Positions 9,120 through 61,612 of a stretch of 64,000 nucleotides of DNA are shown here, piece by piece. The stretch comes from Rhizobium sp. Pop5 (lineage in GTDB: Bacteria; Pseudomonadota; Alphaproteobacteria; Rhizobiales; Rhizobiaceae), in the NCBI RefSeq assembly GCF_024721175.1, contig NZ_CP099399.1, forward strand, positions 62,001-126,000, in the 5' to 3' direction. The stretch's first letter is position 1. Each line of letters starts with the position of its first letter. The position numbers and the translations under genes were made by a program. The notes under the pieces were generated by a model, which was not told where the DNA came from, did no database searches, and saw only the letters and a list, made by a program, of their open reading frames with translations.

Positions 9120-9659
9120 ATGCAAGGCGATGGGATCGCAGACCTGATCGGCCGCGTCGCGCTCGGCGACCGCACGGCTTTCGTTGCCCTCTACAACCAG
9201 ACTGCGCCGAAACTTTTGTCGATCTGCCTGCGTATCTTGAAGGATCGCGCAGAAGCCGAGGAAGCCCTGCAGGAAGTCTATATCAGCATCTGGCAGCGCG
9301 CCCGGAGCTTCTCGACCGCTTCGGGCTCGCCCCCGGTCTGGCTCGCTGCGATTGCACGCAATCGTGCGATCGACGTGCTGCGGGCGCGCAAGCCCGTCGC
9401 CGACGAACTGGACAGCGCCTACGACCTTGCCGATTCCGCACCCGACCCGGAAAAGCAGACCATCACGAAGGATGAAGGAAGGCGGATTGACACCTGCATG
9501 GAAGAGTTGGAAGCTGATCGTGCGGTCGCGGTGAAACGGGCTTATGTCGAAGGGCTGAGCTATCAGGAACTGGCCGATCAGTTTGGCGTTCCGCTAAACA
9601 CGATGCGGACCTGGCTCAGGCGCAGCCTCTTGAAACTGAGAGAGTGCATGGAACGATGA
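9120..9659 (+). CDS. ECF-type RNA polymerase sigma factor
   Basis: About 179 residues containing only sigma regions 2 and 4. Region 2 runs through [32 protein letters not shown] and the [15 protein letters not shown] helix (about residues 15-90). Region 4 is at about 120-175, with the HTH in [20 protein letters not shown]. The ATG at 9120 has a GAGGAA site 5-6 nt upstream; an ATG at 9108 is the alternative. The stop overlaps the anti-sigma start (ATGA), a classical sigma/anti-sigma coupling. The layout and the downstream fasciclin gene resemble the SigK-RskA modules of other bacteria. The inducing signal cannot be read from the sequence. Confidence 0.93.
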
Positions 9660-10375
9660 CATCGCCCGACAAAAGCAAGGGAAACCGCTCCCGCGACGAG
9701 GTTCTCGCCGGTGAATATGTGCTTGGGGTCCTCTCACAGCAGGATCGCCGGGTGGTGGAAGAGCGCATGCGTCACGATCGCACGTTCGCAGCGATCGTCA
9801 GCCGCTGGGAAGCCAACCTCTCCTCGTTCAACGACGAATATGAAGGCGTCGCCCCGAATCGGGAAACCTTCAAGCAGATCGAGGCGCGGCTTTTCGGCGA
9901 TGGCGAAAAAAGCGCGTCCTTTTCGCATGGGCTCTGGAATTCCGCGGTCTTCTGGCGCTCGCTGGCCTTCGCCTGCATCGTCGTCGCCGTCAGCGCCGTC
10001 ATCTTCGCCTCCGGCGTGGTGCCGCAGCCGCAGGGGCCGACACCGCTGGTGGCCGAGCTTTCGGGTGAAAACAACGTCATCAATCTTCGTGCATCCTACG
10101 AAGTGCAGAGCGGCCGGCTGAAGATCGTGCCGGTCGCGGCCGGCAAGCCGGAGGAGAAGTCACTCGAACTCTGGCTGGTACCAGGCAGCGGCGTACCGAA
10201 ATCGCTCGGTATCTTCCAGCCGGGTGAGGGCGGTGAACTTCTCATTCCAGCCGATTTGCGCAGCCAAGTCGGCGATGGCGCCATACTTGCCGTCAGCCTC
10301 GAACCCTTCGGCGGCTCGCCGACCGGGCAGGCGACGGGCCCTATCGTTGCAAGCGGCACCGTCCGCCGGCCGTAA
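9656..10375 (+). CDS. membrane anti-sigma factor, RskA-like
   Basis: A 239-residue single-pass membrane protein. The cytoplasmic N-terminal part (about 1-95) has the LAGEYVLGVLSQQDRR helix characteristic of anti-sigma-K factors, with no HxxxCxxC zinc motif. One transmembrane segment lies at about 100-121, and the C-terminal periplasmic domain carries the SGVPKSLGIF and FGGSPTGQATGPIVASG features of RskA. It overlaps the sigma gene by 4 nt. The expected role is to hold the sigma factor at the membrane until its periplasmic domain senses a signal. The start at 9656 is set by this overlap; an in-frame GTG at 9644 is less likely. Confidence 0.9.
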   Translation: MTSPDKSKGNRSRDEVLAGEYVLGVLSQQDRRVVEERMRHDRTFAAIVSRWEANLSSFNDEYEGVAPNRETFKQIEARLFGDGEKSASFSHGLWNSAVFWRSLAFACIVVAVSAVIFASGVVPQPQGPTPLVAELSGENNVINLRASYEVQSGRLKIVPVAAGKPEEKSLELWLVPGSGVPKSLGIFQPGEGGELLIPADLRSQVGDGAILAVSLEPFGGSPTGQATGPIVASGTVRRP

Positions 10376-22292: not shown

Positions 22293-22597
22293 GGCACGTC
22301 AGCTGAGTATCGGCACGATCTCGTGCGGCGCCGCCGGCTGCAGATGAAGTTCGCTATCCGGTTTCGCTGCAACCAAGCCGTGAGTTCGATGGCAATTTTC
22401 AGCGTCATCTCTGTTATCCGGTCGACGCCGTACTATATGTGCAGGAGTTACAGCCACATTTCTCGATAGCCCTGACAGGCGGATGATCACCAGCCGGCGT
22501 CGCCGCCGATCATGGGAAATTCGAACGCGGGGGCGTTTCCCGCTTTCGGCAGTTCCATCGATTTTGAACGATTTCATTGACCGAGAGAGGAAAGACC
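22293..22597. other. intergenic region without a clear gene
   Basis: These 305 nt separate the TetR gene and the aldo/keto reductase. The minus strand has a stretch that reads like a protein C-terminus (SELHLQPAAPHEIVPILS, ending at 22299) but has no start or ribosome-binding site, so it may be a decayed remnant. GAGAGAGGAAAG directly before 22598 is the ribosome-binding site of the reductase. I see no convincing promoter or palindrome. Confidence 0.3.
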
Positions 22598-23479
22598 ATG
22601 TCCAGCTACATCGCGGCAAAGTCAGGCACCTTCAAGATCGGCGGCGATATCGAGATTAACCGTCTCGGTTTCGGCGCCATGCGCGTCACCGGCAAGGGTA
22701 TCTGGGGTGAACCCGACGATCACGACGAATCCATCCGCACGCTGAAGCGCCTGCCAGAACTCGGCGTCAACTTCATCGATACCGCCGATTCCTACGGCCC
22801 CGATGTCTCGGAATGGCTGATCAGGGAAGCGTTGCATCCCTATGGCGCCAAATCCGTCATCGCCACCAAAGGCGGCCTGACCCGTCACGGCCCGAATATC
22901 TGGCTGCCGGTCGGCCGGCCCGAATATCTGATCCAGCAGGTGCATAAGAGCCTGCGCAATCTCGGCGTCGAACAGATCGACCTCTGGCAGCTTCATCGCA
23001 TCGATCCGAAGGTGCCGGCCAAGGAGCAATTCGATGCGATCAAATCGCTGCTCGACGCCGGCCTCATCCGTCATGCGGGTCTCAGCGAAGTTTCCGTTGC
23101 CGACATCGAGGCGGCCTCGAAGCACTTCAAGGTCGCAACCGTCCAGAACCGCTATAATCTCGTCGATCGCACCAGCGAGGACGTGCTCGATTATTGCGCC
23201 AAGCATGATATCGGCTTCATCCCGTGGTATCCGCTTGCCGCCGGCGATCTCGCCAAGCCGGGCTCGCTGCTCGATACGATCGCCAGAAAGCATGGCGCAG
23301 CGCCGAGCCAGGTCGCGCTTGCCTGGGTGCTGAAGCGCAGCCCGGTAATGCTGCCGATTCCCGGCACCTCCAAGGTCAAGCATCTCGAGGAAAACGTAGC
23401 CGCCGTGGATATCACGCTCTCCGACGAGGAATTTTCGGCCCTCGATGCCGAAGGCAGGAAGGTGTTCAAGGCTGCTTGA
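22598..23479 (+). CDS. aldo/keto reductase
   Basis: A 293-residue NADP(H)-dependent (alpha/beta)8 oxidoreductase. The catalytic Asp and Tyr lie in [15 protein letters not shown] (about residues 56-70), the catalytic Lys in IATKGGL, and the His in LWQLHRID. The cofactor-binding end is [18 protein letters not shown] (about 258-275). The ATG giving [10 protein letters not shown] is preceded by a strong GAGAGAGGAAAG site. The substrate is unknown; members of this class reduce aldehydes, ketones or pyridoxal. It may be controlled by the upstream TetR protein, an inference from position only. Confidence 0.9.
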
Positions 23480-23719
23480 TTTACGCTGACCGCTGCCCTC
23501 GTCCTAACCCTTTCCAAGAAAACAGAGAGAAGGTGCCGACAGGCGGATGAGGGCTGCAACCGGGGAGGCCTCATTTTTCGGCGAAATTTTGACCACTTGA
23601 TCAAATATGCCGCAAAATGAGGCGTCACTCTGCCCTTTAGAAGGCAAGCCTTGCGCCCAATGCATTGCTGCATTGCGGTATTTTCGCTATTCCCGATCAA
23701 ATGAATTGGGTATTTATAT
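23480..23719. other. intergenic region upstream of the small RNA
   Basis: No gene is visible here. A perfect inverted repeat CAATGCA-TTGC-TGCATTG lies at 23658-23675, and an AT-rich TATTTATAT (about 23711) lies a few bases before the first sRNA hairpin. Together they look like an operator and -10 region for the sRNA. Confidence 0.4.
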
Positions 23720-23843
23720 CTCCGTAAGCAGCGCACTCCTCCTCCCAGCGCTCTTACATCGGACTGACAACACTCCTCCTCCCAGTTGTCAGTCAGGATC
23801 GAGAGCCTGGCGCACCTCCTCCCGCGCCGGGCTCTTTTCTTTT
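23720..23843 (+). ncRNA. trans-acting small RNA, alpha-r14 (NfeR1) type
   Basis: Three consecutive hairpins each expose an anti-Shine-Dalgarno CCTCCTCCC loop. Hairpin 1 is GTAAGCAGCGC with GCGCTCTTAC (23724-23757); hairpin 2 is GACTGACAAC with GTTGTCAGTC (23762-23794); hairpin 3 is GAGCCTGGCGC with GCGCCGGGCTC (23803-23834), followed by TTTTCTTTT as a terminator. The length of about 120 nt and three redundant aSD loops match the rhizobial alpha-r14 family, whose S. meliloti member NfeR1 is a stress-induced Hfq-independent regulator affecting nodulation. Such RNAs bind ribosome-binding sites of transporter mRNAs. The 5' end is estimated from TATTTATAT; the 3' end is clear. Confidence 0.88.
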
Positions 23844-23941: not shown

Positions 23942-25219
23942 ATGATCGGCAAATGGCGCGCGCCCCGCTCGGCTATGGGAGTGCTTCTGGTTGCAACGCT
24001 TGTGCTCGCCAGCTGCGGCGGCAGGCCGATCGGCGTGATGCAGGCGGCTGGCTCCGTGCCTCCGGGCACGTCGAAAGTCGATCTTCTCGTGGCGACGACG
24101 CGCGCTGCCGACGACAATCCGGCGGTGCTTTTCTCCGGCGAACGCGGCACCGGGCTGACCGTCAATGCCGTCGATGTTTCCATCCCGCCGGAAGCCAACC
24201 GCAAAGTCGGCCAGGTGCAGTGGCCAAAACGGCTGCCGGCCGATCCGCTCAAGGATTTCGTCACCGTATCCGTCGATCCGCTGGAAGGTGAGCGGGCGGG
24301 CGAGACCTGGTTGAAGGGTCATATGCCTAAAAGCCGCCGCGTGCTGGTTTTCGTGCACGGCTTCAACAATCGCTACGAAGACGCCGTCTACCGCTTCGCG
24401 CAGATCGTCCACGATTCGCATGCCGACGTCGCCCCGGTCGTCTTCACCTGGCCTTCGCGTGCCAGCATCTTCGATTATAATTACGACAAGGAAAGCACCA
24501 ACTATTCCCGCGACGCGCTGGAGGAATTGCTGACCCGGACGGCTGCCAATCCCGCCATCGACGACATCACCGTCATGGCCCATTCGATGGGCACCTGGCT
24601 GACTGTCGAAGCACTCAGGCAGATGGCCATCCGCAACGGACATGTTGCCGCCAAGATCAACAATGTCATCCTTGCCTCGCCGGATCTCGACGTCGATGTC
24701 TTCGGCCGCCAGTTCGTCAGCCTTGGCAAGGATAAGCCGCACTTCACCATCTTCGTCTCCAGGGATGACCGGGCTCTTGCCCTGTCACGGCGCATTTCAG
24801 GCAACGTCGACCGGCTCGGTCAGATCGATCCCTCTGCCGAACCCTACCGTAGCAAGCTGGAGGCCGCGGGCATCACCGTGCTCGATCTCACCAAGCTCAA
24901 GACCGGCGACCGGCTGAATCATGGCAAGTTCGCCGAAAGCCCCGAGGTGGTGAAGCTGATCGGCGATCGGTTGATCGCCGGCCAGACCATCACCGATTCC
25001 AATGTCGGCCTCGGCGAGGCCGTCGGTGCGGTGGCGATGGGGGCTGCCCAGACGGCCGGAAGTGCCGTCAGTGTCGCCGTCAGCACGCCGATCGCGATCT
25101 TCGATCCGCGCACCCGGCGCAATTACGACGCACAGCTGAAGCGTCTCGGCCAGTCGATGGACAATACCGTCGGTTCGGTCGGCGACAGTGTCGGCGCAAG
25201 CCTTCCCGAAAGTCAGTAA
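23942..25219 (+). CDS. DUF900-type alpha/beta-hydrolase lipoprotein
   Basis: A 425-residue protein with a lipoprotein signal ending in lipobox LASC (Cys25). The alpha/beta-hydrolase domain (about 110-320) has the oxyanion-loop motif VFVHGFNNRYEDAVYRF and nucleophile elbow VMAHSMGTW, so the catalytic Ser is in AHSMG. Together with FTWPSRASIFDYNYD this identifies the DUF900/COG4782 esterase-like family. The C-terminal tail is Gly/Ala/Val-rich. The ATG at 23942 has GGAG 7 nt upstream and opens directly into the signal. It is likely anchored to the periplasmic face of a membrane; the substrate is unknown. The sRNA lies just upstream on the same strand. Confidence 0.87.
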   Translation: MIGKWRAPRSAMGVLLVATLVLASCGGRPIGVMQAAGSVPPGTSKVDLLVATTRAADDNPAVLFSGERGTGLTVNAVDVSIPPEANRKVGQVQWPKRLPADPLKDFVTVSVDPLEGERAGETWLKGHMPKSRRVLVFVHGFNNRYEDAVYRFAQIVHDSHADVAPVVFTWPSRASIFDYNYDKESTNYSRDALEELLTRTAANPAIDDITVMAHSMGTWLTVEALRQMAIRNGHVAAKINNVILASPDLDVDVFGRQFVSLGKDKPHFTIFVSRDDRALALSRRISGNVDRLGQIDPSAEPYRSKLEAAGITVLDLTKLKTGDRLNHGKFAESPEVVKLIGDRLIAGQTITDSNVGLGEAVGAVAMGAAQTAGSAVSVAVSTPIAIFDPRTRRNYDAQLKRLGQSMDNTVGSVGDSVGASLPESQ

Positions 25220-27641: not shown

Positions 27642-28109
27642 TCAATAGACGAAGGGATCGACCTCGGTGTGGGTGTTCTCCTTCGGATAGATCACGCCCT
27701 TGCGCAGAATGATGTTGGCGTAGAGCCGGGGCTCGCTGGTCTGGATCAGCGCGTGGGCGGCCTTGACGCGGCCGTAGAAATCCTGGCCGACGAGAGGCAC
27801 CACCTGCCGATGCGGTTCGTGCTTCGCGCAGCAGGCGATCATCTCTTCGTGCACGGGGTCGAGCTTGTCGCGCTCGGCCTTGACGGTCGAGCGGAAGATC
27901 GCCTCGGGCACGAAATCGTCGATCGGCAGCACGCTGAGCACGGCGTTCAGAACCGGGATGAGGTGATGGCCGTCAAGCCGGATCAGCCGGCGTGCATGCT
28001 CGACGCCGGGATAGTTACCGTCGACGATGGCGATCTCGTCGCCGTGGCCCATGGCGCGAAGCGTGAAAAGCAATTCCGGGCTCAAGAGCGGATCAAGTTC
28101 CTTCAGCAT
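27642..28109 (-). CDS. RbsD/FucU-family sugar mutarotase
   Basis: A 155-residue protein with the RbsD/FucU core: LRAMGHGDEIAIVDGNYPG near the N-terminus, the catalytic His in GHGD, and LYANIILRKGVIYP at the C-terminus with the family Tyr/Asn pair. These proteins interconvert pyranose anomers (fucose, ribose). The ATG at 28109 follows a perfect AAGGAGG site; a TTG two codons upstream is not needed. The start overlaps the end of frcR by 17 nt, so the two are co-transcribed. This places a mutarotase with the regulator of fructose/mannose/ribose uptake. It is paralogous to the FucU gene at 61.6 kb. Confidence 0.85.
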   Translation of the reverse strand: MLKELDPLLSPELLFTLRAMGHGDEIAIVDGNYPGVEHARRLIRLDGHHLIPVLNAVLSVLPIDDFVPEAIFRSTVKAERDKLDPVHEEMIACCAKHEPHRQVVPLVGQDFYGRVKAAHALIQTSEPRLYANIILRKGVIYPKENTHTEVDPFVY

Positions 28110-29340
28110 GGTCAACCTCCTTGAAGAGTACGTTTTGGTCGGTGAGGTAGCGCGCGAAGATCGGCAGGCTGGCGCCGCCGATGGCGCGCGCCTGGGCGCC
28201 GACCGCGCCCTCGATGATATCGGGCATGACGACGCCCTGCAGGTCGAGCTTGGCGGCTTCCGTGATCGTCGCCTGTACGACGCGGCTGCGCACCCAGTTG
28301 GGAAAGCCGCCGTCGATCACCGCTGCGCTGAAATCGACGATCGAGGCGGCCGCCACGATCGCCTGCGCCAGCGCCTTGGCGGTATCCTGAATCCACGTTT
28401 CCATAGGCTCGCCGAAATCCACCCAGTCGTCGGCGGAATACCAGAGCGGCTGCGGATCGATGCCACGTTCGCGCAGCATGTTTTCGAGTACGAAGATCGA
28501 AGCGATTTCAAGCAGCTGTTTCGTTTCGCCGTTCTTGCCGCGGACGGGTAGCGGCCCGATCGCGCCCGCCGTGCCGGTGCGGCCGGAAAAGATCGCTGAA
28601 TTCAGCACGATGCCGCCGCCGATGAAGGAGCCGATGAAGAAATAGACGAAATCCGGGTAGGACGGCCCGACGCCGAAGACGAGTTCGGCTCCGCAGGCGC
28701 TGGTCGCATCGTTCTGCAGGAAGACTGGATGGGAGACACGCGTGGCGACCTCCGCCTGTAGGTCGACGTCCCGCCAGACCTCCATCGCGCCCGCCGGCGC
28801 GCCCACTTCGTCCGCCCAGTTCCAGAGCTCGAAAGGCGCGGCGATACCGAGACCGGCGATGCGGCTGCGCTGCTTTTGATCGAGTCGGTCCTCGATCTCC
28901 CGAATGCCCGAGGTGACGAAGGCCAGGATCTCGTTCGGCAGCGGGTAGGCATAGGTCCGGTGGAGCTGCATGCGGATGCGGCCGACGAAATCCATCAGCA
29001 CCAGATCGGCGCTGCGCCGGCCCATCTTTAGGCCGAAGGAATAGACGGCGTCCGGGTTGAGATGCATCGGGATCGACGGCTGGCCCACCCGGCCGCGCAC
29101 CGGCGCGCCGCGCGAAAGCAGCCCTTCCTTTTCCAGGACCCGCATGATGACGGAGACGGTCTGCGCCGAGAGCCCGCTGCGGCGCGCGATATCGGCCTTC
29201 GACAGCGCGCCGTAAAGGCGCACCAGCGACAGCACGAGCCGCTCGTTATACGCCCGCACCCTGACCTGGTTCGCGCCTCCGGCCGGATTTAGAATTGGCG
29301 GCGGGCCCGGTGTGTTCTCCGGTCCATCCAAGGACGACAT
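28093..29340 (-). CDS. frcR: ROK-family transcriptional regulator of the frc operon
   Basis: A 415-residue ROK-type regulator. The N-terminal winged HTH (about residues 30-90) is NERLVLSLVRLYGALSKADIARRSGLSAQTVSVIMR, and the C-terminal part has a sugar-kinase-like fold. The CxCGxxGCxE zinc motif of classic ROK kinases and repressors is missing (the segment reads GAIGPLPVRGKNGETKQ), as in many rhizobial sugar-operon regulators. It is divergent from frcBCAK, as FrcR is in Sinorhizobium meliloti. GGGAGGAG precedes the ATG. A perfect GAATTA-A-TAATTC palindrome in the shared promoter region is its likely operator. Confidence 0.85.
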   Translation of the reverse strand: MSSLDGPENTPGPPPILNPAGGANQVRVRAYNERLVLSLVRLYGALSKADIARRSGLSAQTVSVIMRVLEKEGLLSRGAPVRGRVGQPSIPMHLNPDAVYSFGLKMGRRSADLVLMDFVGRIRMQLHRTYAYPLPNEILAFVTSGIREIEDRLDQKQRSRIAGLGIAAPFELWNWADEVGAPAGAMEVWRDVDLQAEVATRVSHPVFLQNDATSACGAELVFGVGPSYPDFVYFFIGSFIGGGIVLNSAIFSGRTGTAGAIGPLPVRGKNGETKQLLEIASIFVLENMLRERGIDPQPLWYSADDWVDFGEPMETWIQDTAKALAQAIVAAASIVDFSAAVIDGGFPNWVRSRVVQATITEAAKLDLQGVVMPDIIEGAVGAQARAIGGASLPIFARYLTDQNVLFKEVDHAEGT

Positions 29341-29452: not shown

Positions 29453-29568
29453 TTGCCATCGTCAAGGGCACGGGACAGTTTGTGGGGGCCTTGGGCGCTC
29501 CACGGCGAAGTGTCATTTTAGCAGTTCCGGACCGCAGGGGCGGTGCCGGCAAACTCTGGGAGGAGTCC

Positions 29569-30639: not shown

Positions 30640-30739
30640 GGACGGACGATGTGCCGTCGCCCACCGGCTAAGCAATGAACGGATCAACAAGGGTGACGGC
30701 CTCCGCGCGAGTTCGGCGCGCGGATGCGGAGGAGGAACA

Positions 30740-41207: not shown

Positions 41208-41303
41208 CGGCTTCTCCTCTGTCACTCTATAGACGACGAGATGCCCCGCATTTCGACAGGGTCAAATCGGGTAGGAGGGAGCCTTGCGGCACCCTCCTCC
41301 CAC

Positions 41304-41335
41304 ACCACCGTGCGAACGGTTCCGTACACGGCGGT
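41304..41335 (-). other. group II intron domain V
   Basis: The helix ACCGCCGTG / CACGGTGGT is capped by a short inner helix with a GAAC loop and a 2-nt bulge, the form of the catalytic domain V. It begins directly at the stop codon of the reverse transcriptase gene. Confidence 0.8.
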
Positions 41336-42742
41336 TCATCGAGTGTGGTTTAGGCGTCGGAGTTCCTGTTGGAGTGAGACTAGCCCCAGCTGTTCGAAGA
41401 AGGCTTTTCGGAAGGCGTCGTTCATGTGGCTGGCCCCGGCATTCCACCAAGGGCCGTGGCCGTTCCCCGCCGAGTCACGGGCACGCTGTTCCGTCAGTCC
41501 TCGTTGCCTCAACCGCATAGCGCGCGTGGCCGGTTTCTTCCATTGCCGCCACAGGATGCAGCGCAACCTGCGCCGCAGCCAGCCATCAAGGTCCTCGAGA
41601 ATCCCCTTACTGTCGGTCAGCCGGAAGTAAGCAATCCAGCCATGCAGGATCGGGGTAAGGTCTTTGATGGTGGCGCCAAGGGCGCGACCGCGCCCGGCAC
41701 GGAAGGCAGCCTTCAGCTTGCCCCTGAACCGCGCCACGCTCGACGCCGCGATCCGCAGACGCGGCGCCTTGTGGGCGGTCATGGTGTAGCCGAGGAAGGT
41801 ACGCTTCCATGGACGGTCCACGGCACTCTTCGCGCCATTGACCGTTAGCTTCAGCCGTTCGGTAAGGAAGCAGGTGAGCGAGGCCATGACCCGCTCGCCG
41901 GCATGCTGCGAACGTACATAGACGTTGCAGTCGTCGGCGTAGCGGCAGAAGGCATGACCGCGCCGCTCCAATTCCTTGTCGAGATCGTCGAGCAGGATAT
42001 TTGACAGCAGCGGCGAGAGTGGACCGCCTTGCGGCGTGCCTTCGCTGCGTGCCGTTACGATCCCGCCCGTCATCAGCCCAGCCTGCAGGTAACGGCGGAT
42101 CAACCGCAGCACCTGCGTGTCTCCGATTTTGCGTGCCACGCGTGCCATCAAGACATCGTGGTTCACTCGGTCGAAGAACTTCTCCAAATCAAGATCGACC
42201 ACAAAGCGACGGCCGCCGGCCACATAAGACCGGGCGGCAAGAACCGCGTCGTGGGCGCTCCGCCCCGGCCGGAAGCCGTAGGAGGAAGCAGAGAAGTCCG
42301 GGTCGAAGATCGGCATCAGCACCTGATGCATCGCCTGCTGGATGAGTCGGTCCAGGACCGTCGGGATGCCCAATTGCCGCATCCCTTTGCCGCCAGGCTT
42401 GGGGATTTCCACCCCACGCACCGGCGTCGGTCTGTAGCGGTCCGCCAGCAGGTCTTCTCTGATGCGCGGCCAATGCTCCGCAAGGTATGCCTTCAATTGC
42501 TCGACAGACATCTTATCGATACCCGGCGCACCCTTGTTCGCCACCACCCGGCGGTAAGCCGCCATCATGTTCTCGCGGCTGAGGATCGCCTCCATCAGTC
42601 GCTCATTCGCCTCCGGTCGAGAGGATCCCGGCCCTGCCGTGGTGTCTGATGCACCCAATGCCTGCCCTCGCGGCTTCCGGCCGCTGCTCTCAGCATGGGC
42701 ACGGGGCGTCTCAGCCCCGTCTTCTGCGTCTGTCCTCACCAT
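41336..42742 (-). CDS. ltrA: group II intron reverse transcriptase/maturase
   Basis: A 468-residue protein from the ATG at 42742, which has GGAGG 11 nt upstream; the frame stays open to 42919 without support. The RT domain starts near AYRRVVANKGAPGIDKMSV. It has GFRPGRSAHDAVLAA, the FFDRVNHDVLM motif, TPQGGPLSPLLSNILLDDLD, and the catalytic CRYADDCNVYV with YADD intact. The maturase domain X is at about 330-400 (HGWIAYFRLTDSKG). The GNGHGPWWNAGASHMNDAF tail is of the short C-terminal type without an H-N-H endonuclease, as in class C. The protein assists splicing and target-primed reverse transcription. Confidence 0.92.
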   Translation of the reverse strand: MVRTDAEDGAETPRAHAESSGRKPRGQALGASDTTAGPGSSRPEANERLMEAILSRENMMAAYRRVVANKGAPGIDKMSVEQLKAYLAEHWPRIREDLLADRYRPTPVRGVEIPKPGGKGMRQLGIPTVLDRLIQQAMHQVLMPIFDPDFSASSYGFRPGRSAHDAVLAARSYVAGGRRFVVDLDLEKFFDRVNHDVLMARVARKIGDTQVLRLIRRYLQAGLMTGGIVTARSEGTPQGGPLSPLLSNILLDDLDKELERRGHAFCRYADDCNVYVRSQHAGERVMASLTCFLTERLKLTVNGAKSAVDRPWKRTFLGYTMTAHKAPRLRIAASSVARFRGKLKAAFRAGRGRALGATIKDLTPILHGWIAYFRLTDSKGILEDLDGWLRRRLRCILWRQWKKPATRAMRLRQRGLTEQRARDSAGNGHGPWWNAGASHMNDAFRKAFFEQLGLVSLQQELRRLNHTR

Positions 42743-43199
42743 CGAAAGACCGGCCTCCGTCCGGCACTCAATGTTCGGCCCTTCACCGCTTGGTCGGCTA
42801 ATACGGCTTCTGCTGACCCCTGCCGCCCCATCCCGACGCCTCGCGACGCCGGTAGCACACCTGAAACCAGGGGCAGGTCGGCAGGTCTCCCAGGGTAAGA
42901 CGCGTGACCTTCGTGCCATATACCTGTCGCATCTACGGCCGCATCCTCCGGGTGATATTGGACTTCAGGCATTTGTGCACCTTCGTCCGGATGCGGTCGC
43001 CTCATATGCGTTTCCTGTTCGTCAGGCCGGCACTTTGCTTACAACTTCCTTCAGACCTCGCCTTGCAACGACGCCCTTGTTGTTCGGCTAGCAGTTCCCA
43101 TCACCAGGGCCTGCAGAGGACTTTCACCTCCAAGTCATCAACCGGATACCATCCCGGTCAAACGGTGCTCTCGCACCACGCGCCATGCCTGGCGCACAC

Positions 43200-50348: not shown

Positions 50349-51098
50349 TTACGCCGCACGCAAGCCGATTCTTCGCGTGATCGCGCCTTCGATGAGACCC
50401 ATGGCATCATAGATCAGCACTGCCATCAGGCCGACGATCAGGCCGCCCTGCAGGATGAAGGCGGTATTGTCGGAGATCAGCCCGGCGATGATCACTTCGC
50501 CGAGACCCTTTGCCGCAACCGTCGAGCCGATCGTCGCCGTGCCGATGTTGATGACGGTCGCGACCTTCAATCCTTCGAGGATCAGCGGCAGGGCGAGCGG
50601 CAGCTCGACGCGAAACAGCCGCTGCATGCCGTTCATGCCCATGCCGTCGGCGGCGTCGAGCACCTGCGGCGAAACTTGCTTCAGGCCGGCGACGGTGTTT
50701 TCGAAGATCGGCAGCAGGCCGTAGAGAAAGAGCGCGATCAGCGTCGGCATGGCGCCGAAGCCGGTGGCGGGAACGGCGAGCGCCAGCACCGCGACCGGCG
50801 GGAAGGTCTGCCCTGCATTGGCGATGGCGCGCGACAGCGGCAGAAAATCCGCCCCGCTTTCCCGTGTCACGAAGATGCCGCCGAGCACGGCGAGCGCGGC
50901 GCTGCAGGCGATCGATCCGATGACGAGCTGCAGGTGCCCCGCGGCAAGCGAGGCAAGACTGTTTTGGGTATAGACCGCGGGCGCATTGTTGTTCGTCAGC
51001 GGCACGAGCAGGAAGGAAAGCCACTCCGTCCTGAACAGCAGGATCAACAGCAGGGCGAGCGCCGCCAGGCGGAAGAGATTGGCGACAAGGAGTTTCAT
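50349..51098 (-). CDS. osmoprotectant ABC transporter, permease 2 (YehW/OpuCD-like)
   Basis: A 249-residue inner-membrane permease with about five membrane segments. The EAA-type loop at LDAADGMGMNGMQRLFRVELPLALPLILEG (about residues 135-165) contacts the ATPase. It is the last gene of a four-gene leftward unit with the order binding protein, large permease, ATPase, small permease, the order of E. coli yehZ-yehY-yehX-yehW (OsmU). Such transporters import glycine betaine, choline-O-sulphate or related compounds. Its start overlaps the ATPase stop by 4 nt. Confidence 0.88.
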   Translation of the reverse strand: MKLLVANLFRLAALALLLILLFRTEWLSFLLVPLTNNNAPAVYTQNSLASLAAGHLQLVIGSIACSAALAVLGGIFVTRESGADFLPLSRAIANAGQTFPPVAVLALAVPATGFGAMPTLIALFLYGLLPIFENTVAGLKQVSPQVLDAADGMGMNGMQRLFRVELPLALPLILEGLKVATVINIGTATIGSTVAAKGLGEVIIAGLISDNTAFILQGGLIVGLMAVLIYDAMGLIEGAITRRIGLRAA

Positions 51099-52039
51099 GC
51101 CTTGCGGCCTAGCTTGAGAAGCCGGCTCATCGAGATCGATCCCACCGGCGCCTTCTCGCCATCCTGCACGGCCGCCTCCTCGACCCCCTGCCAGATCATT
51201 TCGGCGAGCGCATCACGCAGGCTGAGCGACTGCGGGAGCGCATAGGCGAGACCGTTCTTGGCCGGCTCCATGCTGTCCTTCAGCGGGAGCAGCGACATCA
51301 GCTTCAGCGCCCGGTCGGAGGTGCCGGTCAATTGTTGGACGAAGGGATCGGCGGGTTCGGTGAGAATCTTTTCCGGCGTCGAGCATTGTAGCAATCTGCC
51401 CTGGCTCATCACCGCGATCTGATTGCCGAGATGGAAGGCCTCGTCCATGTCGTGTGTGACGAGGATGACGGTCGTGCCGAACTGCTTCTGGATCGCCAAG
51501 AGGTCGTCTTGCGCCTTGCCGCGGATGACAGGGTCGAGCGCCCCGAAGGGCTCGTCCATCAATAGCAGCTCCGGTTCGGCCGCAAGTGCGCGGGCGACAC
51601 CGACACGCTGCTGCTGGCCGCCGGAGAGCTGATGCGGATATTTGTCGGCGAAATCAGCCGGATCGAGGTTGAAAAGCCCGAGCAGTTCCTCGACCCGTTT
51701 GGCGATGCGGGTGGAATCCCAGTCGAGGAGTTGGGGGACCGTCGCGATATTCTGCGCCACGGTCCGGTGCGGGAAGAGGCCGTGTCCCTGGATCGCATAA
51801 CCGATCCTGCGGCGAAGCTCGGTCACCTCAACGTCCATTATGTTCTGTCCGCCGACGAAGATCTGACCCTCGGTGATCGGCACCAGCCGGTTGATCATCC
51901 GCATCAGCGTCGATTTGCCCGAGCCTGATGTGCCGACGATGACGGTGATCTCACCCTTCTCGACGCTCATCGAGACCTTGTCGACAACGGGGGCGGCGCC
52001 ATAGCGCTTGGTGACGTTCCTGATCTCGATCATGCTCAT
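51095..52039 (-). CDS. osmoprotectant ABC transporter, ATP-binding subunit (YehX/OpuCA-like)
   Basis: A 314-residue ATPase: Walker A VGTSGSGKSTLMRM (about residues 34-47), signature LSGGQQQRVGVARALA, Walker B LLLMDEPFGALDP and H-loop LVTHDMDEAFHLG. A C-terminal extension of about 70 residues follows the nucleotide-binding domain in place of the paired CBS domains of OpuCA. That matches the E. coli YehX length (308). It overlaps both permease genes by 4 nt, so the operon is tightly coupled. Confidence 0.9.
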   Translation of the reverse strand: MSMIEIRNVTKRYGAAPVVDKVSMSVEKGEITVIVGTSGSGKSTLMRMINRLVPITEGQIFVGGQNIMDVEVTELRRRIGYAIQGHGLFPHRTVAQNIATVPQLLDWDSTRIAKRVEELLGLFNLDPADFADKYPHQLSGGQQQRVGVARALAAEPELLLMDEPFGALDPVIRGKAQDDLLAIQKQFGTTVILVTHDMDEAFHLGNQIAVMSQGRLLQCSTPEKILTEPADPFVQQLTGTSDRALKLMSLLPLKDSMEPAKNGLAYALPQSLSLRDALAEMIWQGVEEAAVQDGEKAPVGSISMSRLLKLGRKA

Positions 52040-53202
52040 GCGGCGGATCCCCGGATGCTGTCGATGACCGCATCGAGGATGACGGCCGATGAGAAGGCGA
52101 AGAAGACGGTCGGCACGGCCCCAAGGAGGACGAGGTCCATCGCCGTCTGGCCGAGCCCCTGGAAGATGAAGATGCCGAAGCCGCCGCCGCCGATCAGCGC
52201 AGCGATCGTCACCATGCCGATCGCCTGCACCAGCACAATGCGGATGCCGGTGAGGATGACGGGAAAGGCAAGGGGCATGTCGATACCGGTCAGGATCTGC
52301 CGGCGGGTCAGCCCCATGCCGGCGGCGGCATCGCGTACCGAAGGGTCGACGCCCTGAAGGCCAACGACCGTGTTGGCGACGATCGGCAGCAGCGAATAAA
52401 GTACCAGCGCGATCAGCGCCGGCGCCGTGCCGATACCGCGGATGCCGATGGCGGCGGCCAGTGGCACATGGGTGGCGAGATAGCCGAGCGGCAGCATCAG
52501 CAGACCGAAGAGCGCCAGACTGGGGATTGTCTGGATGAGGCTCAGGCCCTGCAGCACGACGGCGCGCAGCTTCGGCACCCAGAAGCAGAGGATGCCGAGC
52601 GGCAGGCCGAGAACGATGGCGATCGCAAGCGAGCCGAATGCCAGCAGCAAATGCGAGATCGCTTCAGTCTCGAATTGCGCCGACCGTGTGGAAAATTCCT
52701 TCATGATCGACAGACTGTCGAGCAGGCCTGAGGAGAGCGAGACGAAGAGCAGCGCCGCATACGCCGCAAGGGCTGCGACCCGCATCCAGGGCGCCAGCCG
52801 GATTTTGACAAGCGCATCCGAGATGACGAGCCCGATGACGGCAAACAGAACCCAGAAGCCGCCGCCGGGCGTCATGCGCGCGACCGTGCTGCCCGGCGGC
52901 GTTGCCGCCGCCGAGACGAGGCCGATCGCGACGATCAGCGCGGCAAGGCAGAGTGTGGCGATGACAAGCCGCGCGACGGCCTGCTTCAGGAACAGCGTGG
53001 CGAAGGCGGTAAGGACAAGGAGGATCGTCAGGAAGATGACGGAAGGCTGAGGAAGAAGCTGCAGCAGTAACATCGGCTTGCCGGCCGCGATGCGGTTCGC
53101 CTTCACATAGATGAAGGGCATCAGCGCCGTCGCCGCGATACCGCACGTCACCAGGACCACGCCGAGCCGGTCCAGCCGGCGGACCGCTGAGGTCTCTTCC
53201 AT
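52036..53202 (-). CDS. osmoprotectant ABC transporter, permease 1 (YehY-like)
   Basis: A 388-residue permease, much larger than the second one because of an N-terminal membrane extension of about 170 residues with four or five added segments, as in E. coli YehY (385). The core permease (about 190-385) contains the loop DAAAGMGLTRRQILTGIDMPLAFPVILTG. I chose the ATG giving MEETSAVRRL because the homologous N-terminus begins there. An in-frame TTG at 53247 with GGAG upstream would add 15 residues and cannot be excluded. It lies between the binding protein and the ATPase. Confidence 0.87.
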   Translation of the reverse strand: MEETSAVRRLDRLGVVLVTCGIAATALMPFIYVKANRIAAGKPMLLLQLLPQPSVIFLTILLVLTAFATLFLKQAVARLVIATLCLAALIVAIGLVSAAATPPGSTVARMTPGGGFWVLFAVIGLVISDALVKIRLAPWMRVAALAAYAALLFVSLSSGLLDSLSIMKEFSTRSAQFETEAISHLLLAFGSLAIAIVLGLPLGILCFWVPKLRAVVLQGLSLIQTIPSLALFGLLMLPLGYLATHVPLAAAIGIRGIGTAPALIALVLYSLLPIVANTVVGLQGVDPSVRDAAAGMGLTRRQILTGIDMPLAFPVILTGIRIVLVQAIGMVTIAALIGGGGFGIFIFQGLGQTAMDLVLLGAVPTVFFAFSSAVILDAVIDSIRGSAA

Positions 53203-53286
53203 CAATTCAACTGTGTCTGCCAACCCGTCTGCCCAACCTATCAGCAATGGGAGGCTCCGCCCGCAATCGGGCGGAGCGAGCGATGA

Positions 53287-54195
53287 CTACTTCAGGAAGC
53301 CCTTTTCCTTGAGATAGGCCTCGGCGACGGACTTCGCCGGCTCGCCGTCGACCTGGATCTTGGCGTTGAGCTTGCGCAACTCGTCGGCGGTCAGGCTCTT
53401 GAAGATCGGCGAGAGCACTTCCTCGATCTTCGGATTGGCCTTCAGCACCTCTTCGCGGATGATCGGGGTGGGCGCATAGACCTGCTGCACGTTCTTGTCG
53501 TCCTCGAGAACGGTGAGTTCGGCCGCTTCGATCGCGCCGTCCGTGCCGTAGACCATGGCGGTGTTGACGCCGTTCGTCTGGTCGGCCGCCGCCTTGATCG
53601 TCGCCGCCGTATCGCCGCCGGAGAGAACGACCGTCTGGTCGGGCTTCAGCTGAAAGCCATAGGTCGTCTGGAACGCGGGAAGCGCGCCGGCCGAATTGAC
53701 GAATTCGGCCGAAGCCGCAAGCTTGACCGCACCGCCGCCGGCAACCCATTTGCCGAAATCCGTCAGGCTCTTCAGCTTGTTCGGGCCGGCGACATCGTTG
53801 CGCACGGCAAGCGCCCAGGTGTTGTTGGCGGGCGACGGCGTCAGCCAGACGATCTTGTTGGCGTCGTAATCGAGCTTCTTCGCCAGTTCATAGCCCTGGT
53901 CGATGTTCTTCCACGCGGCGTCGTCCGCCTTGTTGAAGAAGAAGCCGGCATTGCCGGTATATTCGGGATAGATGTCGATTTCGCCAGCGGTAATCGCCTT
54001 GCGCACGACGGGGGTCGCGCCGAGCGCGATGCGGTCCTGCGTCTTGATGCCGTTGGCCTCGAGGGCGAGCGCGATGACGTTGCCAAGCAGCGTACCTTCG
54101 GTGTCGATCTTCGACGATACGACGACGTCTGCGGCCTGGGCGGCACCCGCCGCGAAGGCGGAGAGCGAAACGGCAAGTGCAAGTTTCTTCAGCAT
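53287..54195 (-). CDS. osmoprotectant ABC transporter, binding protein (YehZ/OsmF-like)
   Basis: A 302-residue periplasmic binding protein with a signal peptide (LKKLALAVSLSAFAAGAAQA, cleavage before ADVVV). The chain has the quaternary-amine-binding (OpuAC) family features VVSSKIDTEGTLLGNVIALAL and IYPEYTGNAG, where an aromatic residue contacts the methylammonium head. It is the first gene of the leftward transporter operon and is divergent from the tandem-HTH LysR regulator, which probably controls it. Confidence 0.9.
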   Translation of the reverse strand: MLKKLALAVSLSAFAAGAAQAADVVVSSKIDTEGTLLGNVIALALEANGIKTQDRIALGATPVVRKAITAGEIDIYPEYTGNAGFFFNKADDAAWKNIDQGYELAKKLDYDANKIVWLTPSPANNTWALAVRNDVAGPNKLKSLTDFGKWVAGGGAVKLAASAEFVNSAGALPAFQTTYGFQLKPDQTVVLSGGDTAATIKAAADQTNGVNTAMVYGTDGAIEAAELTVLEDDKNVQQVYAPTPIIREEVLKANPKIEEVLSPIFKSLTADELRKLNAKIQVDGEPAKSVAEAYLKEKGFLK

Positions 54196-57773: not shown

Positions 57774-58748
57774 TCAATTGCTCTTGCGGCGGCGCAGTTG
57801 ATCGAAGAACACGATCACGATGATCAGCAGACCGGTGATGATGCGCTGCCAGAAGGAGTTGACGTTCAGAAGGTTCGCGCCGTTGTTGATGGTGGCGAGA
57901 ATGAAGGCGCCGATCAGCGGGCCATGCACCGAACCCACCGCGCCGAACAGGCTGGTGCCGCCGATGACGGAGGAGGCGATCGCCTGCAGTTCCCAGCCGT
58001 CGGCCTGTGTCGCGTTGCCGATCGCGATGCGCGAGGCGAGCAGCACGCCGACGAAAGCCGCGAACGAAGCCGAAAGAATATAGGCGAGATAGATCATTCC
58101 CTTGACGTTGACGCCGGAAAGGCGCGCGGCTTCGGCATTCGAACCGACGGCGAAGAGATAGCGGCCCCAGCGGCTGAGATGCAGGAAGACGAAGGATGGG
58201 ACCGCCACCAGGATGACCATCCAGAACAGGCTCGGAACACCGAGGAAGTCGGCGCGGGCGAAATTGCTGAACGTCTCGTCGGTGATGCTGATCGTTGAGC
58301 CGTTGGTGATCAACAGACCGATGCCGCGCAGCGATGTCAGCGTCGCCAGCGTGATGATGAAGGGCGGCAGGCCCATATGGACGATGCCGAAGCCGTGGAA
58401 GGCGCCGATCGCGACACCGATTGCCAGCGTCAGCACGATCGCCGCCCAGAGCGGTATGCCCGCCTGCAGCAGCCAGGCGATGATGACGGTGCAGAAGCCG
58501 ACGATGGCGCCGACCGACAGGTCGATGCCGGCGGTGATGATGACGAAAGTCTGGCCGAGCGCGAGGATCGCCGTCATCGCCCCCTGGCGCAGCAGGTTCG
58601 AGATGTTGAGCGGCGTCCAGAAGCTATCCGTCTTGATGGCGAGCGCGAGCCAGAGGAGCAGCAGCAGGCCAATCAGGGTCAGGCCGAACAAGATGTTCAT
58701 TGTCCGGCGCGGCGGCGGCGCGACGATTTCGGTGGGGGTGACAGTCAT
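57774..58748 (-). CDS. sugar ABC transporter, permease (RbsC class)
   Basis: A 324-residue RbsC-class permease with eight to ten membrane segments. The family motif ITAGIDLSVGAIVGFCTV is at about residues 70-87, and WGRYLFAVGSNAEAARLSGVNV is the cytoplasmic loop that contacts the ATPase. It belongs with the double ATPase (27 nt upstream) and a binding protein. The gene order in transcription is binding protein, ATPase, permease. The transported sugar is most likely the one processed by the FucU-like mutarotase and aldo/keto reductase upstream. Confidence 0.92.
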   Translation of the reverse strand: MTVTPTEIVAPPPRRTMNILFGLTLIGLLLLLWLALAIKTDSFWTPLNISNLLRQGAMTAILALGQTFVIITAGIDLSVGAIVGFCTVIIAWLLQAGIPLWAAIVLTLAIGVAIGAFHGFGIVHMGLPPFIITLATLTSLRGIGLLITNGSTISITDETFSNFARADFLGVPSLFWMVILVAVPSFVFLHLSRWGRYLFAVGSNAEAARLSGVNVKGMIYLAYILSASFAAFVGVLLASRIAIGNATQADGWELQAIASSVIGGTSLFGAVGSVHGPLIGAFILATINNGANLLNVNSFWQRIITGLLIIVIVFFDQLRRRKSN

Positions 58749-58775
58749 GAATTTTCTCCCTCTTATTCTTCTGGC

Positions 58776-60329
58776 TCAGACGCCGATCGCTTCGCTGAGC
58801 ACTTGTTCATGCGTCGCCGCGTGGAAATCATGGCTGGCGACGAGCTTGCCGCCACGGAAGACGTGCAGCCGGTCGGCCAGTTCATAGACCTCGGGCAGGT
58901 AGGAAGAGATCAGAATGATGCCTGCCCCTTCCTTCAGAAGCTTGGCGAAGAGCCGGTAGATTTCCGCCTTTGTGCCGACGTCGACACCGACGGTCGGCTC
59001 ATCGAATATGAACAGCCTCGCGCCATGGCTCAGCCACTTGCCGATCACGATCTTCTGCTGGTTGCCGCCCGACATGCTGGAGGCCGGAACGCGCCGGCTC
59101 GGCGTCTTGATGCTGAGATCGCGGATCTGCCTGTCGGCATTCGTCGATTCGCGTGCGTGATTGATGACCGGCCCGTGGCTGAGGCGTCCGAACACTGGCA
59201 GGTTGATGTTGAGGCCGATCGGCAGGTTGAGGCATAGCCCCTGGTCGCGCCGGCTTTCGGGCGCCAGCGCAATGCCGAGCTCCATCGCCGCGCGCTCGTT
59301 CCTGATGTTGACAGGTTTGCCTCTCCACGCGATTTCGCCCGATGTTATCGGCTGGCGTCCGTAGAGTCCGAGTGCGAATTCGCTGCGCCCGGCGCCGATC
59401 AGCCCGTAAAGCCCGACGATCTGCCCCGCCTTGACGCTCAGCGACACGTTCTCGAAGCCCGGCCCTGAAAGGTCGCGGACCTCGACGATCGTCTCGCCAA
59501 TCGCAATCTCTTCCTTGTGGTAGATCTGCTCGATCGAGCGGTTGATCATCAGCGCGATCAGTTCGGCGTCGTTGGTCTCGCCGATGAGGCGCGTGCCGAC
59601 ATGCGTGCCGTCGCGCAGCACCGAGACACGGTCGGCAAGCTCGAAGACCTCCTCCATGCGGTGGCTGATATAGACGATGGTGACACCTTCGCCCTGCAGG
59701 CGGCGGATCAGCTTGAAGAGCTGCGCCGATTCCTGGCGCGTCAGATAGGCTGTGGGTTCGTCGAAGATCAGGAACTGTGTGCCGCGCATGGCCGCGCGCG
59801 CGGTGGCGACGAGCTGCTGCTGGCCGATCGTCAGCGAGCTCAGAAGCGCACCGGCCGGCAGGCCGAAGCCGAGATCGTCGAGAACGGCCTGCGCCATCTT
59901 CTCCATCTGCTTCTTGCGCATGAGCCCGTAACGGTTGACCTCGTCGCCGAGGAAGAGATTGGCGGCTACCGTCAGGTGCCGGCAGAGCACGACTTCCTGG
60001 TGAACGGCGTTGATGCCGCGGGCGATTGCCTCGTTCGGCGTCGACAGGCCCACCGGATGGCCGCACCACAATACCTCGCCGGCCGTACGGGTGATGACGC
60101 CGGTGAGCAATTTGATGAGAGTGGATTTGCCGGCGCCGTTTTCGCCGACGATGGCGTGGATTTCACCGGCCAGGAAGGTCAGCGTCGCCGGTTTCAGCGC
60201 CTGCACATGACCGTAATTCTTCTGCAGGCCTTTCAGTTCGAGGATGGGCGATCCGGCGGGAACTCGATTGGCTTCTCTCAGCGTCGCGCTGTCATCGTGG
60301 CGATGACTGACCTCTTCCAGTCCGATCAT
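58776..60329 (-). CDS. sugar ABC transporter, double ATP-binding subunit (RbsA class)
   Basis: A 517-residue protein with two fused ATPase domains. The first has an intact Walker A (GENGAGKST), Q-loop VHQEVVLCRH, signature-like SLTIGQQQLVATA and Walker B FLIFDEPTAYL. The second has the degenerate P-loop GLIGAGRSE typical of RbsA/MglA, and a good signature MSGGNQQKIVIGKWL with Walker B LFIFDEPTVGVD. The ATG giving MIGLEEVSHR has AGAGAGGAGAGG upstream. This is the double-domain form, in contrast to single-domain FrcA in the frc operon. Confidence 0.93.
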   Translation of the reverse strand: MIGLEEVSHRHDDSATLREANRVPAGSPILELKGLQKNYGHVQALKPATLTFLAGEIHAIVGENGAGKSTLIKLLTGVITRTAGEVLWCGHPVGLSTPNEAIARGINAVHQEVVLCRHLTVAANLFLGDEVNRYGLMRKKQMEKMAQAVLDDLGFGLPAGALLSSLTIGQQQLVATARAAMRGTQFLIFDEPTAYLTRQESAQLFKLIRRLQGEGVTIVYISHRMEEVFELADRVSVLRDGTHVGTRLIGETNDAELIALMINRSIEQIYHKEEIAIGETIVEVRDLSGPGFENVSLSVKAGQIVGLYGLIGAGRSEFALGLYGRQPITSGEIAWRGKPVNIRNERAAMELGIALAPESRRDQGLCLNLPIGLNINLPVFGRLSHGPVINHARESTNADRQIRDLSIKTPSRRVPASSMSGGNQQKIVIGKWLSHGARLFIFDEPTVGVDVGTKAEIYRLFAKLLKEGAGIILISSYLPEVYELADRLHVFRGGKLVASHDFHAATHEQVLSEAIGV

Positions 60330-60387
60330 GGACCTCTCCTCTCTTGTCACGTCTGCTCTATCCCTGGTGAACCATACCATGGATGAG

Positions 60388-60421
60388 AAAGGCCGCGCCG
60401 GTTTTTGAAGCCGGCGCGGCC
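60388..60421 (-). terminator. intercistronic stem-loop behind the sugar-binding protein gene
   Basis: On the minus strand GGCCGCGCCGG and CCGGCGCGGCC form an 11-bp stem with a 9-nt loop, followed by TTTC. It lies 12 nt after the binding-protein stop and before the ATPase gene, the same plan as the frcB-frcC stem-loop. Confidence 0.7.
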
Positions 60422-60432
60422 CGTCCGTCGTT

Positions 60433-61422
60433 TTACTTGATCTTCGGGTTCAGCAGTGCGTCGATCTTCGGATCGGCCATATTCGCCTTGGTGACGAGGT
60501 TTGCGCCGGTGTCGACGTTGGCTTCAACCTTTTCGCCCTTGGAGACGGCAAGCGCGGTCTTGATGCCGTCATAACCCATGCGATAGGGGTCCTGAACGAC
60601 GAGGCCGGCGATGGCGCCATCCTTGAGGAAGCCGACCGTCTTGTCGTCGCTGTCGAAGCCGATGACCTTGATCTTGTCGCCGAGCTTGTTTTCGGCGATC
60701 GCCTGGCCAACGCCCTGCGCCAGGATGAGGTTCGAGGCGAAGACGCCAACGAGCTTCGGGTTGGCGGTGATCAGGTCGGTCATCATGTTGAGGCCGGTCG
60801 TCGCCTGGCCGTCGCCATACTTGTCGGCGATGACTTTCAGACCGGGATGCTTGGTCTTGATCTGATCCAGGAAGCCTTCGCGGCGCTGTTCCAGCGAGCC
60901 GACGCCGGGAAGGTTGGTCAGGATAACGATTTCGCCTTCTTCCTTGCCCGTCATCCCCTTGATGGCGGCGGCAAGACCGTCAGCGGCGATGCGGCCGCCC
61001 TGGACGTTGTCGGTCGTCAGGAACGACTTGAATGCCTTGGAGTCGGCGCCGGAGTCGATGCCGATGATCGGAACCGACTTGGCGGCTTCGTCGATCGGCT
61101 TGCCGAGCGCCTTGAACTCGGTCGGCGAGATGACGACGGCGGCTGGCTTGCCGGCAACGGCGTTCTCAAGAATGCTGATCTGGCCGTTGACGTCGGATTC
61201 GGCCTGGGCACCGAGTTCCGGCACCTTGACACCGAGATCCTTGCCTGCCTTGCGAGCGCCGGCCAGAACGATCTGCCAGTAGAAGGACGTCGTGTCCTTG
61301 ACGATGATCGGGATCGTCACCTCGGCGGCAAACGAGGTGACCGGCATCGCCGTGGCGATGACGGCAGCGCCTGCGAGCGCCGTAAAGGCGCGGCGGGACA
61401 GAAGGGATTTCACGATAGTCAT
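60433..61422 (-). CDS. sugar ABC transporter, periplasmic binding protein (RbsB class)
   Basis: A 329-residue binding protein with a signal peptide (core FTALAGAAVIATAMPVTSF, cleavage after FAA). The mature chain has FYWQIVLAGARKAGKDLGV, VISPTEFKALGKPIDEA, IIGIDSGAD and VIGFDSDDKTVGFLKDG, the pentose/hexose contact strands of RbsB-type proteins. The ATG has GAGAGGAGAA upstream. It begins the transport part of the cluster. A TTTTTATCGATAAAAA palindrome 65-80 nt upstream is a likely operator, and its promoter may be separate from that of the upstream catabolic genes. Confidence 0.92.
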   Translation of the reverse strand: MTIVKSLLSRRAFTALAGAAVIATAMPVTSFAAEVTIPIIVKDTTSFYWQIVLAGARKAGKDLGVKVPELGAQAESDVNGQISILENAVAGKPAAVVISPTEFKALGKPIDEAAKSVPIIGIDSGADSKAFKSFLTTDNVQGGRIAADGLAAAIKGMTGKEEGEIVILTNLPGVGSLEQRREGFLDQIKTKHPGLKVIADKYGDGQATTGLNMMTDLITANPKLVGVFASNLILAQGVGQAIAENKLGDKIKVIGFDSDDKTVGFLKDGAIAGLVVQDPYRMGYDGIKTALAVSKGEKVEANVDTGANLVTKANMADPKIDALLNPKIK

Positions 61423-61486
61423 AAGGGTTCTCCTCTCAGGATGCGTTCTCCTCCGAATAAACCGGCCGCTGAACGCAGGCGGACGA

Positions 61487-61502
61487 TTTTTATCGATAAA
61501 AA
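61487..61502. promoter_or_regulatory. candidate operator of the sugar-transport operon
   Basis: TTTTTATCGATAAAAA is a perfect 16-nt palindrome 65 nt upstream of the binding-protein start. It is AT-rich with an ATCGAT core, as in several sugar-operon regulators. No regulator gene of this cluster lies in the window, so the binding protein is unknown. Confidence 0.5.
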
Positions 61503-61612
61503 ACATTTGCCAGGTGAAGCTAGCCGAGGCGCAATCAAATTGCAAGAGCGCCGAATAGGCTTTTTTGCTTTGGTAAACTCCTGCCAAGCAACTGATTTTA
61601 TTTCAATACAAC

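Follow-up and report, generated by a model that had tools for sequence, protein, structure and literature searches.

A conserved αr14 small RNA of Rhizobium with three anti-Shine-Dalgarno loops, at a locus other than that of NfeR1

Introduction

A small RNA gene lies on the forward strand of a 64-kb stretch of DNA from Rhizobium sp. Pop5 (64,000 nucleotides, called the window in what follows), between an aldo/keto reductase gene and a gene for a DUF900 alpha/beta hydrolase. An earlier note, made from the sequence alone, took it for an RNA with three anti-Shine-Dalgarno (anti-SD) hairpin loops of the αr14/NfeR1 type. In Sinorhizobium meliloti the loss of NfeR1 impairs osmoadaptation and nodulation, and the locus raises the question of whether the window gene is NfeR1 or another member of the same family, and of which mRNAs it might pair with. 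The first part bears on a tempting transfer of function, against which our results warn in that NfeR1-type promoters precede αr14 copies at other loci as well; which Rhizobium copy does the job of NfeR1 thereby becomes a testable assignment.

Results

A search of the Rfam models with cmscan placed a match to RF02344 (ar14) at positions 23718..23839 (+), with a score of 116.4 bits (E = 7.2e-21) against a gathering cut-off of 58.8 bits. The match spans model positions 1-123 of 123 and gives a gene of about 120-122 nt, the 5′ end of which is taken from the family model and is to that extent presumptive. The family named in the earlier note was therefore right, and the bounds it gave (23720-23843) are better set at 23718-23839. 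The predicted fold has an energy of -55.1 kcal/mol compared with a mean of -29.0 kcal/mol for shuffled sequences (z = -7.9), a value that none of 200 shuffles equalled. All three stems form in this fold, and all three hairpins expose CCUCCUCCC in the loop: hairpin 1 at 23724..23757 (+; loop ACUCCUCCUCCCA at 23735-23747), hairpin 2 at 23762..23794 (+; loop ACUCCUCCUCCCA at 23772-23784, on a 10-bp stem) and hairpin 3, the presumed terminator, at 23801..23836 (+). The three consecutive stems had been called perfect, which holds for stem 2 with its uninterrupted Watson-Crick pairing; stem 1 has one unpaired A (23729) and stem 3 includes a U-G pair. The reading of the third hairpin as a terminator is borne out by the sequence, in which hairpin 3 runs into the U-tract TTTTCTTTT (23835..23843, +) of a presumed intrinsic terminator. 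Hairpin 3 is absent from the list returned by a terminator scan that admits loops of up to 8 nt, its own loop having 10. Taken together, the Rfam match, the fold and the sequence confirm a three-hairpin anti-SD RNA, and the window gene is a real, well-conserved member of the known αr14 or 'cuckoo' (RFMSmelA075) family of small RNAs, the name 'cuckoo' coming from papers that cite the original description.

The sequence CCTCCTCCC occurs four times on the two strands of the window: its starts at 23738, 23775 and 23815 are the three αr14 loops, and the fourth lies at 41293. Parts of a group II intron (RF02001, RF01998 and RF00029) extend over 41266-43072 on the reverse strand, and a reading frame of 527 aa lies at 41336-42919.

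Compensating changes in the stems among related rhizobia were what the earlier note had made its reading depend on, and they are present. Among the fetched loci a search by pattern turned up 110 distinct αr14 copies, and the alignment comprises 53 rows, namely the window copy and 52 others picked for diversity, with copies that matched a four-hairpin pattern left out. Two-sided compensating changes occur in 27 of the 30 pairs (7 of 7 in helix 1, 10 of 10 in helix 2 and 10 of 13 in helix 3), and none of 500 shuffles reached any of five covariation measures. On the consensus structure 94.3% of cells pair, as against 32.7-42.7% when one side is slid by 1-3 columns; as the consensus comes from this very alignment, it has an advantage over the slid versions, yet the difference is wide and the two-sided changes are numerous. 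None of the 53 rows departs from CCUCCUCCC in loop 1 or loop 2, and in loop 3 only CCUCCC is constant, so that the stems vary with compensation and the loop seeds hardly change.

The genome of this strain contains six αr14 copies over the cut-off and one match below it. At least one copy over the cut-off was found in 60 of 60 genomes sampled from the genus. A match was present in 116 of 121 genomes of the family sample (over the cut-off in 108) and in 15 of 289 genomes of the class sample, our own included, which was the only one over the cut-off; these three surveys used stricter filters, by which weak matches may be lost. The search with the αr14 model gave no match in any of 14 control genomes. 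Two other copies of our genome, L003 and L005 on contigs C3 and C1, have an extra seed or seed-like hairpin in front, making four in a row, and resemble in this the published RFMSmelA099 type. In a genome from another family of the class (G081, loci L038 and L052) there are eight consecutive CUCCUCCC loops.

The seventh match, on contig C2 and outside the window (G000:C2:4163872-4163984, +; L167:9873-9985), was considered as a possible αr14 relic and rejected as such, being a separate conserved three-hairpin RNA without the seed. It scores 33 bits to ar14 and has the loops CCCCUCAC and CUCCCCUCAA where αr14 has the seed. It lies between the genes for a penicillin-binding protein and an M20 peptidase, where blastn finds it in all 30 of the genus loci fetched (of 60), and it shows compensating changes in stem 1. 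The sequence GGAACC-N16-GTTT upstream of it resembles an EcfG stress promoter. In other genera (loci L169, L175, L177 and L180) a canonical αr14 adjoins the same type of penicillin-binding-protein gene. Since the predicted GsrN homologue of R. etli lies near the stress-regulator locus (PMC5869019), the C2 RNA need not be GsrN.

The upstream neighbour of the window copy, an aldo/keto reductase gene at 22577..23479 (+; PF00248), defines the syntenic locus. Its product is 91-96% identical to those of the seven nearest named records, that of R. vallis being the highest, which places the window in Rhizobium. The pattern of the small RNA was found within 500 nt downstream of the reductase in 27 of 28 fetched loci, L062 being without a pattern match; some of these loci are one genome fetched twice, and 24 distinct sequences are represented. 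Downstream follows the DUF900 gene at 23942..25219 (+; PF05990; likely ATG at 23942). The two are on the same strand, the 3′ end of the RNA is 103 nt from the ATG, and the gene is kept in the fetched flank of 25 of the 27 syntenic loci, a constancy that would suit a 5′ leader or attenuator of the DUF900 gene. We consider such a role extremely unlikely and rejected it as the main reading, because hairpin 3 and its U-tract would end transcription, two loci (L008 and L028) contain the small RNA and the reductase with no DUF900 match in the 1.5-kb flank, in a third (L035) the match begins about 500 nt further on, and the αr14 paralogues elsewhere have different neighbours.

Two motifs mark the published promoter of NfeR1 (PMC10746234): an LsrB box, TGCA-N6-GCAT, which spans about -72 to -57, and an NtrC box, TGC-N11-GCA, which spans about -116 to -101. 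An exact form of either motif is missing from the 150 nt before the window copy, where each occurs with one mismatch. The LsrB-like box TGCGCCCAATGCAT (23652..23665, +) lies at about -69, the distance seen for NfeR1, and all 27 syntenic loci have a box with at most one mismatch at -70 to -69, which is exact in 7 of them; by chance such a box fits 188 of 20000 random window slots. It is overlapped by the most conserved stretch of the upstream region, AATGCATTGCTGCATTGCGG (23659..23678, +). Conservation per 10 nt is 0.88 at 23659-23668 and 0.98 at 23669-23678, the rest of the upstream region has 0.70-0.82, and the columns of the RNA itself have 0.86-1.00, these values coming from the window and the 24 distinct orthologous sequences, one of which has the same letters as the window. 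On this evidence the window copy is likely to be under LsrB-type control. A possible NtrC-like site, TGCCGCAAAATGAGGCG (23608..23624, +), lies at about -112, and TGC-N11-GC[AG] is present in 21 of 27 syntenic loci, a weak indication given that 4614 of 20000 random slots (23%) match when one mismatch is allowed. A scan for consensus promoters gave no sigma-70-like site beside the presumed start of the RNA.

In S. meliloti one of the six αr14 copies was reliably detected by Northern blot under the conditions tested (PMC7143759), and the window copy, as one of several duplicates in a multi-copy family, could accordingly be silent or dying. We regard this as very unlikely given the conservation of the RNA columns over 24 distinct orthologous sequences, the LsrB-like box in all 27 loci and the formation of all three stems in the predicted fold.

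In S. meliloti the gene for NfeR1 (SmrC14) is flanked by SMc02051 and tig (PMC2780559), and a second small RNA, sm7′, was also predicted in this intergenic region (PMC2573895). In our genome this position is held by a different αr14 copy, G000:C2:1449227-1449346, between a GidA-type gene and the DUF2157 and trigger-factor genes. Strict orthology of the window copy to NfeR1 was for this reason rejected, on locus only; the window copy counts as a paralogue located elsewhere. The label 'NfeR1 type' thus stands for the family and for the promoter with its LsrB-like box, and falls for the gene; the nodulation and osmoadaptation phenotypes cannot simply be transferred to the window copy. The interpretation in the earlier note was to this extent partly supported, its family and compensating changes holding and its NfeR1 gene identity not.

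At the tig locus our genome has a single αr14 copy, and the element upstream of it, TATTGCACTGCAAAAT, is similar to the one before the first copy of a tandem pair in a related genome (G417). The second G417 copy carries TGCACAGATCGCAT, an exact LsrB box. Among the best 30 of 59 tig loci of the genus, 28 have one αr14 copy, L204 has a degenerate copy, L211 has none by pattern, and two full tandem copies were found in none. Near tig, L195, L201 and L204 also show a short DUF1127-like gene (by eye), followed by one hairpin whose loop is CUUCCUCCC or CUCCUCCC and by another that resembles a terminator. In a distant member of the family, L181 has two clusters on the reverse strand (9957-10037 and 9571-9608) in which αr14-type hairpins directly follow short DUF1127-like frames (by eye); these clusters adjoin a GidA-type gene and thus show the CIN1 arrangement at a locus that may be that of NfeR1.

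A shift of locus might still have left the window copy as the working NfeR1 counterpart of the group, activated by LsrB, repressed by NtrC and silencing ntrB, a sharper version of the explanation that we prefer and not exclusive of it. NfeR1 represses ntrB through its seeds, as shown with a triple-seed mutant (PMC10746234). The window copy shares family and seeds with NfeR1, has the LsrB-like box at the published distance throughout the syntenic loci and the one-mismatch NtrC-like site, and the start of our own ntrB (CCGGGAGGCGG) would pair with the loop at -15.6 kcal/mol; the tig-locus copy, moreover, is single, with an upstream element of the first-tandem type and an LsrB-like box that stands at -142 relative to the αr14 part. 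Against this the locus is the wrong one, neither published motif is exact in the window copy, NtrC-like matches are common by chance, and another copy of our genome, C2:3938209-3938329 (-; L002), has the two motifs in exact form, at -68 and -113. We consider the role of NfeR1 counterpart possible for the window copy, though somewhat unlikely, and C2:3938209 is the better candidate because both published promoter motifs are exact there.

The complement of the αr14 loop is CTGGGAGGAGGAGT, and perfect matches to parts of it precede genes of the nearby frc cluster. The predicted site before frcB (ATG at 29569) is CTGGGAGGAG at 29556..29565 (+), a 10-nt perfect complement that is kept in full in 17 of 21 recovered loci, our own included, and over at least 9 nt in 19 of 21. 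The one before frcC (ATG at 30740) is GGAGGAGGA at 30728..30736 (+), a 9-nt perfect complement found in 11 of 16 recovered starts, our own included; four of the other five starts are upstream ATGs picked by the pattern, and one has 7 nt. These counts come from 30 loci fetched of 59 found, with frcB not recovered by the pattern in 9 and 14 without an frcC start. A weaker predicted target is the gene for a ROK-family regulator (frcR-like) at 28093..29340 (-; PF00480), with the 8-nt complement GGGAGGAG before its start.

A 583-kb sample of our genome, window included, yielded 1829 candidate starts (a number of starts and not of genes, as nested ones enter separately), 14 of which have a perfect complement of at least 8 nt; only two starts, frcB among them, reach 10 nt, and three, frcC among them, have 9. 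Six of the 14 lie in the window, which supplies 231 of the 1829 starts: those of frcB, frcC, an NmrA-like gene at 37887 (-), a start at 63106 (-), the ROK regulator and a PfkB kinase gene. Among 62 window starts, 4 have duplex energies below the 1% background level and 12 below the 5% level, a share that is no evidence by itself, since these starts were chosen for good SD sequences. The earlier note had proposed a FucU-like gene, a PRC-barrel gene, frcB and frcC as targets, and the two frc genes hold as predictions with their 10 and 9 nt. At their likely starts the PRC-barrel gene and both RbsD/FucU genes match the loop over 6 nt, and the duplex energies are -15.1 (RbsD/FucU at 61631), -10.4 (RbsD/FucU at 27642) and -10.8 kcal/mol (PRC-barrel). 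The first of these ranks fifth of the 62, so that the gene at 61631 may still be a target. This RbsD/FucU gene (61631-62077, -), the second in the window, adjoins a second set of monosaccharide-type ABC transporter genes (binding protein, ATPase and permease; 57774-61587, -), all under the equivalog cut-offs. The window also contains glycine-betaine/choline-type ABC uptake genes at 51095-54195 (-), with an OsmF-type binding protein (NF049931, over the cut-off).

Over the whole genome, TGGGAGGA-N2-9-ATG has 55 matches and its reversed control 2. Ten of the first 30 of the 55 sites precede genes for solute-binding proteins (24 ORFs scanned, with six under 40 aa left out); nine of the ten proteins have a periplasmic or extracellular solute-binding domain, and the tenth is a TctC. 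The related search with AAGGAGGA-N2-9-ATG gave 70 matches, of which the first 30 (19 ORFs scanned) include one solute-binding protein, and the difference, 10 of 30 vs 1 of 30, has a Fisher p of 0.0056 when counted by sites. The enrichment agrees with what has been published for NfeR1, the two earlier validated targets of which are mRNAs of solute-binding proteins, one being common to AbcR (PMC8844928). It is not to be credited to αr14 alone because AbcR, of which our genome has four copies (ar15, RF02345), fits the same sites; at six of the ten solute-binding-protein sites the next base is an A, which suits AbcR better.

The same overlap is seen at the frc genes. Calculated without a site-accessibility term, the duplex energies with the αr14 loop, AbcR and the 16S tail are -20.1, -20.5 and -11.3 kcal/mol for frcB, -19.6, -17.3 and -12.1 for frcC, -18.3, -23.8 and -12.5 for the frcR-like gene, and -15.8, -18.4 and -10.5 for PfkB. 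AbcR is thus equal or better for frcB, frcR-like and PfkB, and the αr14 loop is better for frcC only. In Agrobacterium frcC is controlled by AbcR1 (PMC4211561). Neither frcB, frcC nor fructose occurs in the main text of PMC8844928, frcB and fructose are absent from the main text of PMC10746234, and a term search of the R. etli tiling-array paper (PMC2881028) gave no mention of the locus of the window copy.

Discussion

Our results suggest that the window gene very probably encodes a stand-alone, trans-acting αr14 RNA with a promoter of its own and a triple anti-SD seed that blocks SD sequences, mainly those of uptake mRNAs. The RNA would be transcribed from its own promoter under the conserved LsrB-like (LysR-type) box. 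Any of its three equivalent loops could then pair with an extended SD of the type (CU)GGGAGGAG(GA), and such pairing would block ribosome loading and thus repress translation. The targets would be mainly mRNAs of nutrient-uptake systems. Judged by their complementarity, frcB and frcC are the likeliest nearby ones and are well supported as predictions. As one of six copies over the cut-off, the window copy is probably redundant with some of its five paralogues and with the AbcR RNAs. It could also be argued that the window copy regulates the frc fructose-uptake genes to which its locus is linked, acting jointly with AbcR via overlapping seeds, given that frcB and frcC keep matches of 10 and 9 nt, beyond what an SD needs, and that six of the 14 strongest matches in the 583-kb sample fall within the window, the source of 231 of the 1829 starts; we put this forward tentatively and think it unlikely. 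Three points are new here: the window copy is not the positional NfeR1, a conserved LsrB-like box nevertheless precedes it at the same distance as in NfeR1, and frcB and frcC emerge as conserved candidate targets.

In comparison with known systems, the closest is the family itself. RF02344 ar14, or RFMSmelA075 (PMC3927594), has three hairpins with CCUCCUCCC in each loop, variable stems, a terminator hairpin and multiple copies, as does the window copy, and we found no difference between the two. NfeR1 of S. meliloti (Smr14C2, SmelC397; PMC10746234, PMC7143759, PMC2780559) has the same family, length and three redundant seeds. It differs in lying beside tig, with sm7′ predicted in the same intergenic region, and in its promoter, to both published motifs of which the window copy has one mismatch each.

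A further likeness is to the CcsR RNAs of Rhodobacter sphaeroides, to which RS0680a corresponds. RS0680a has an aSD motif in each of two loops (PMC3927594), and CcsR1-4 and ccaF1 (CIN1) are multi-copy stress RNAs that, in contrast to the window copy, which follows an aldo/keto reductase gene, are cut from the 3′ UTR of a DUF1127 mRNA (PMC10253847, PMC8625941). Inspected by eye, the region upstream of the window copy (23380-23760) has no DUF1127-like frame of at least 20 aa, unlike the two copies in L181, which have such frames directly upstream.

Finally, AbcR1 and AbcR2 (RF02345, ar15) have an anti-SD seed that overlaps that of αr14, and uptake genes as targets. They form a separate family and are Hfq-bound, whereas NfeR1 is Hfq-independent (PMC10746234). 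The αr14 and AbcR seeds would compete for the same type of SD, which bears on the selectivity of anti-SD small RNAs.
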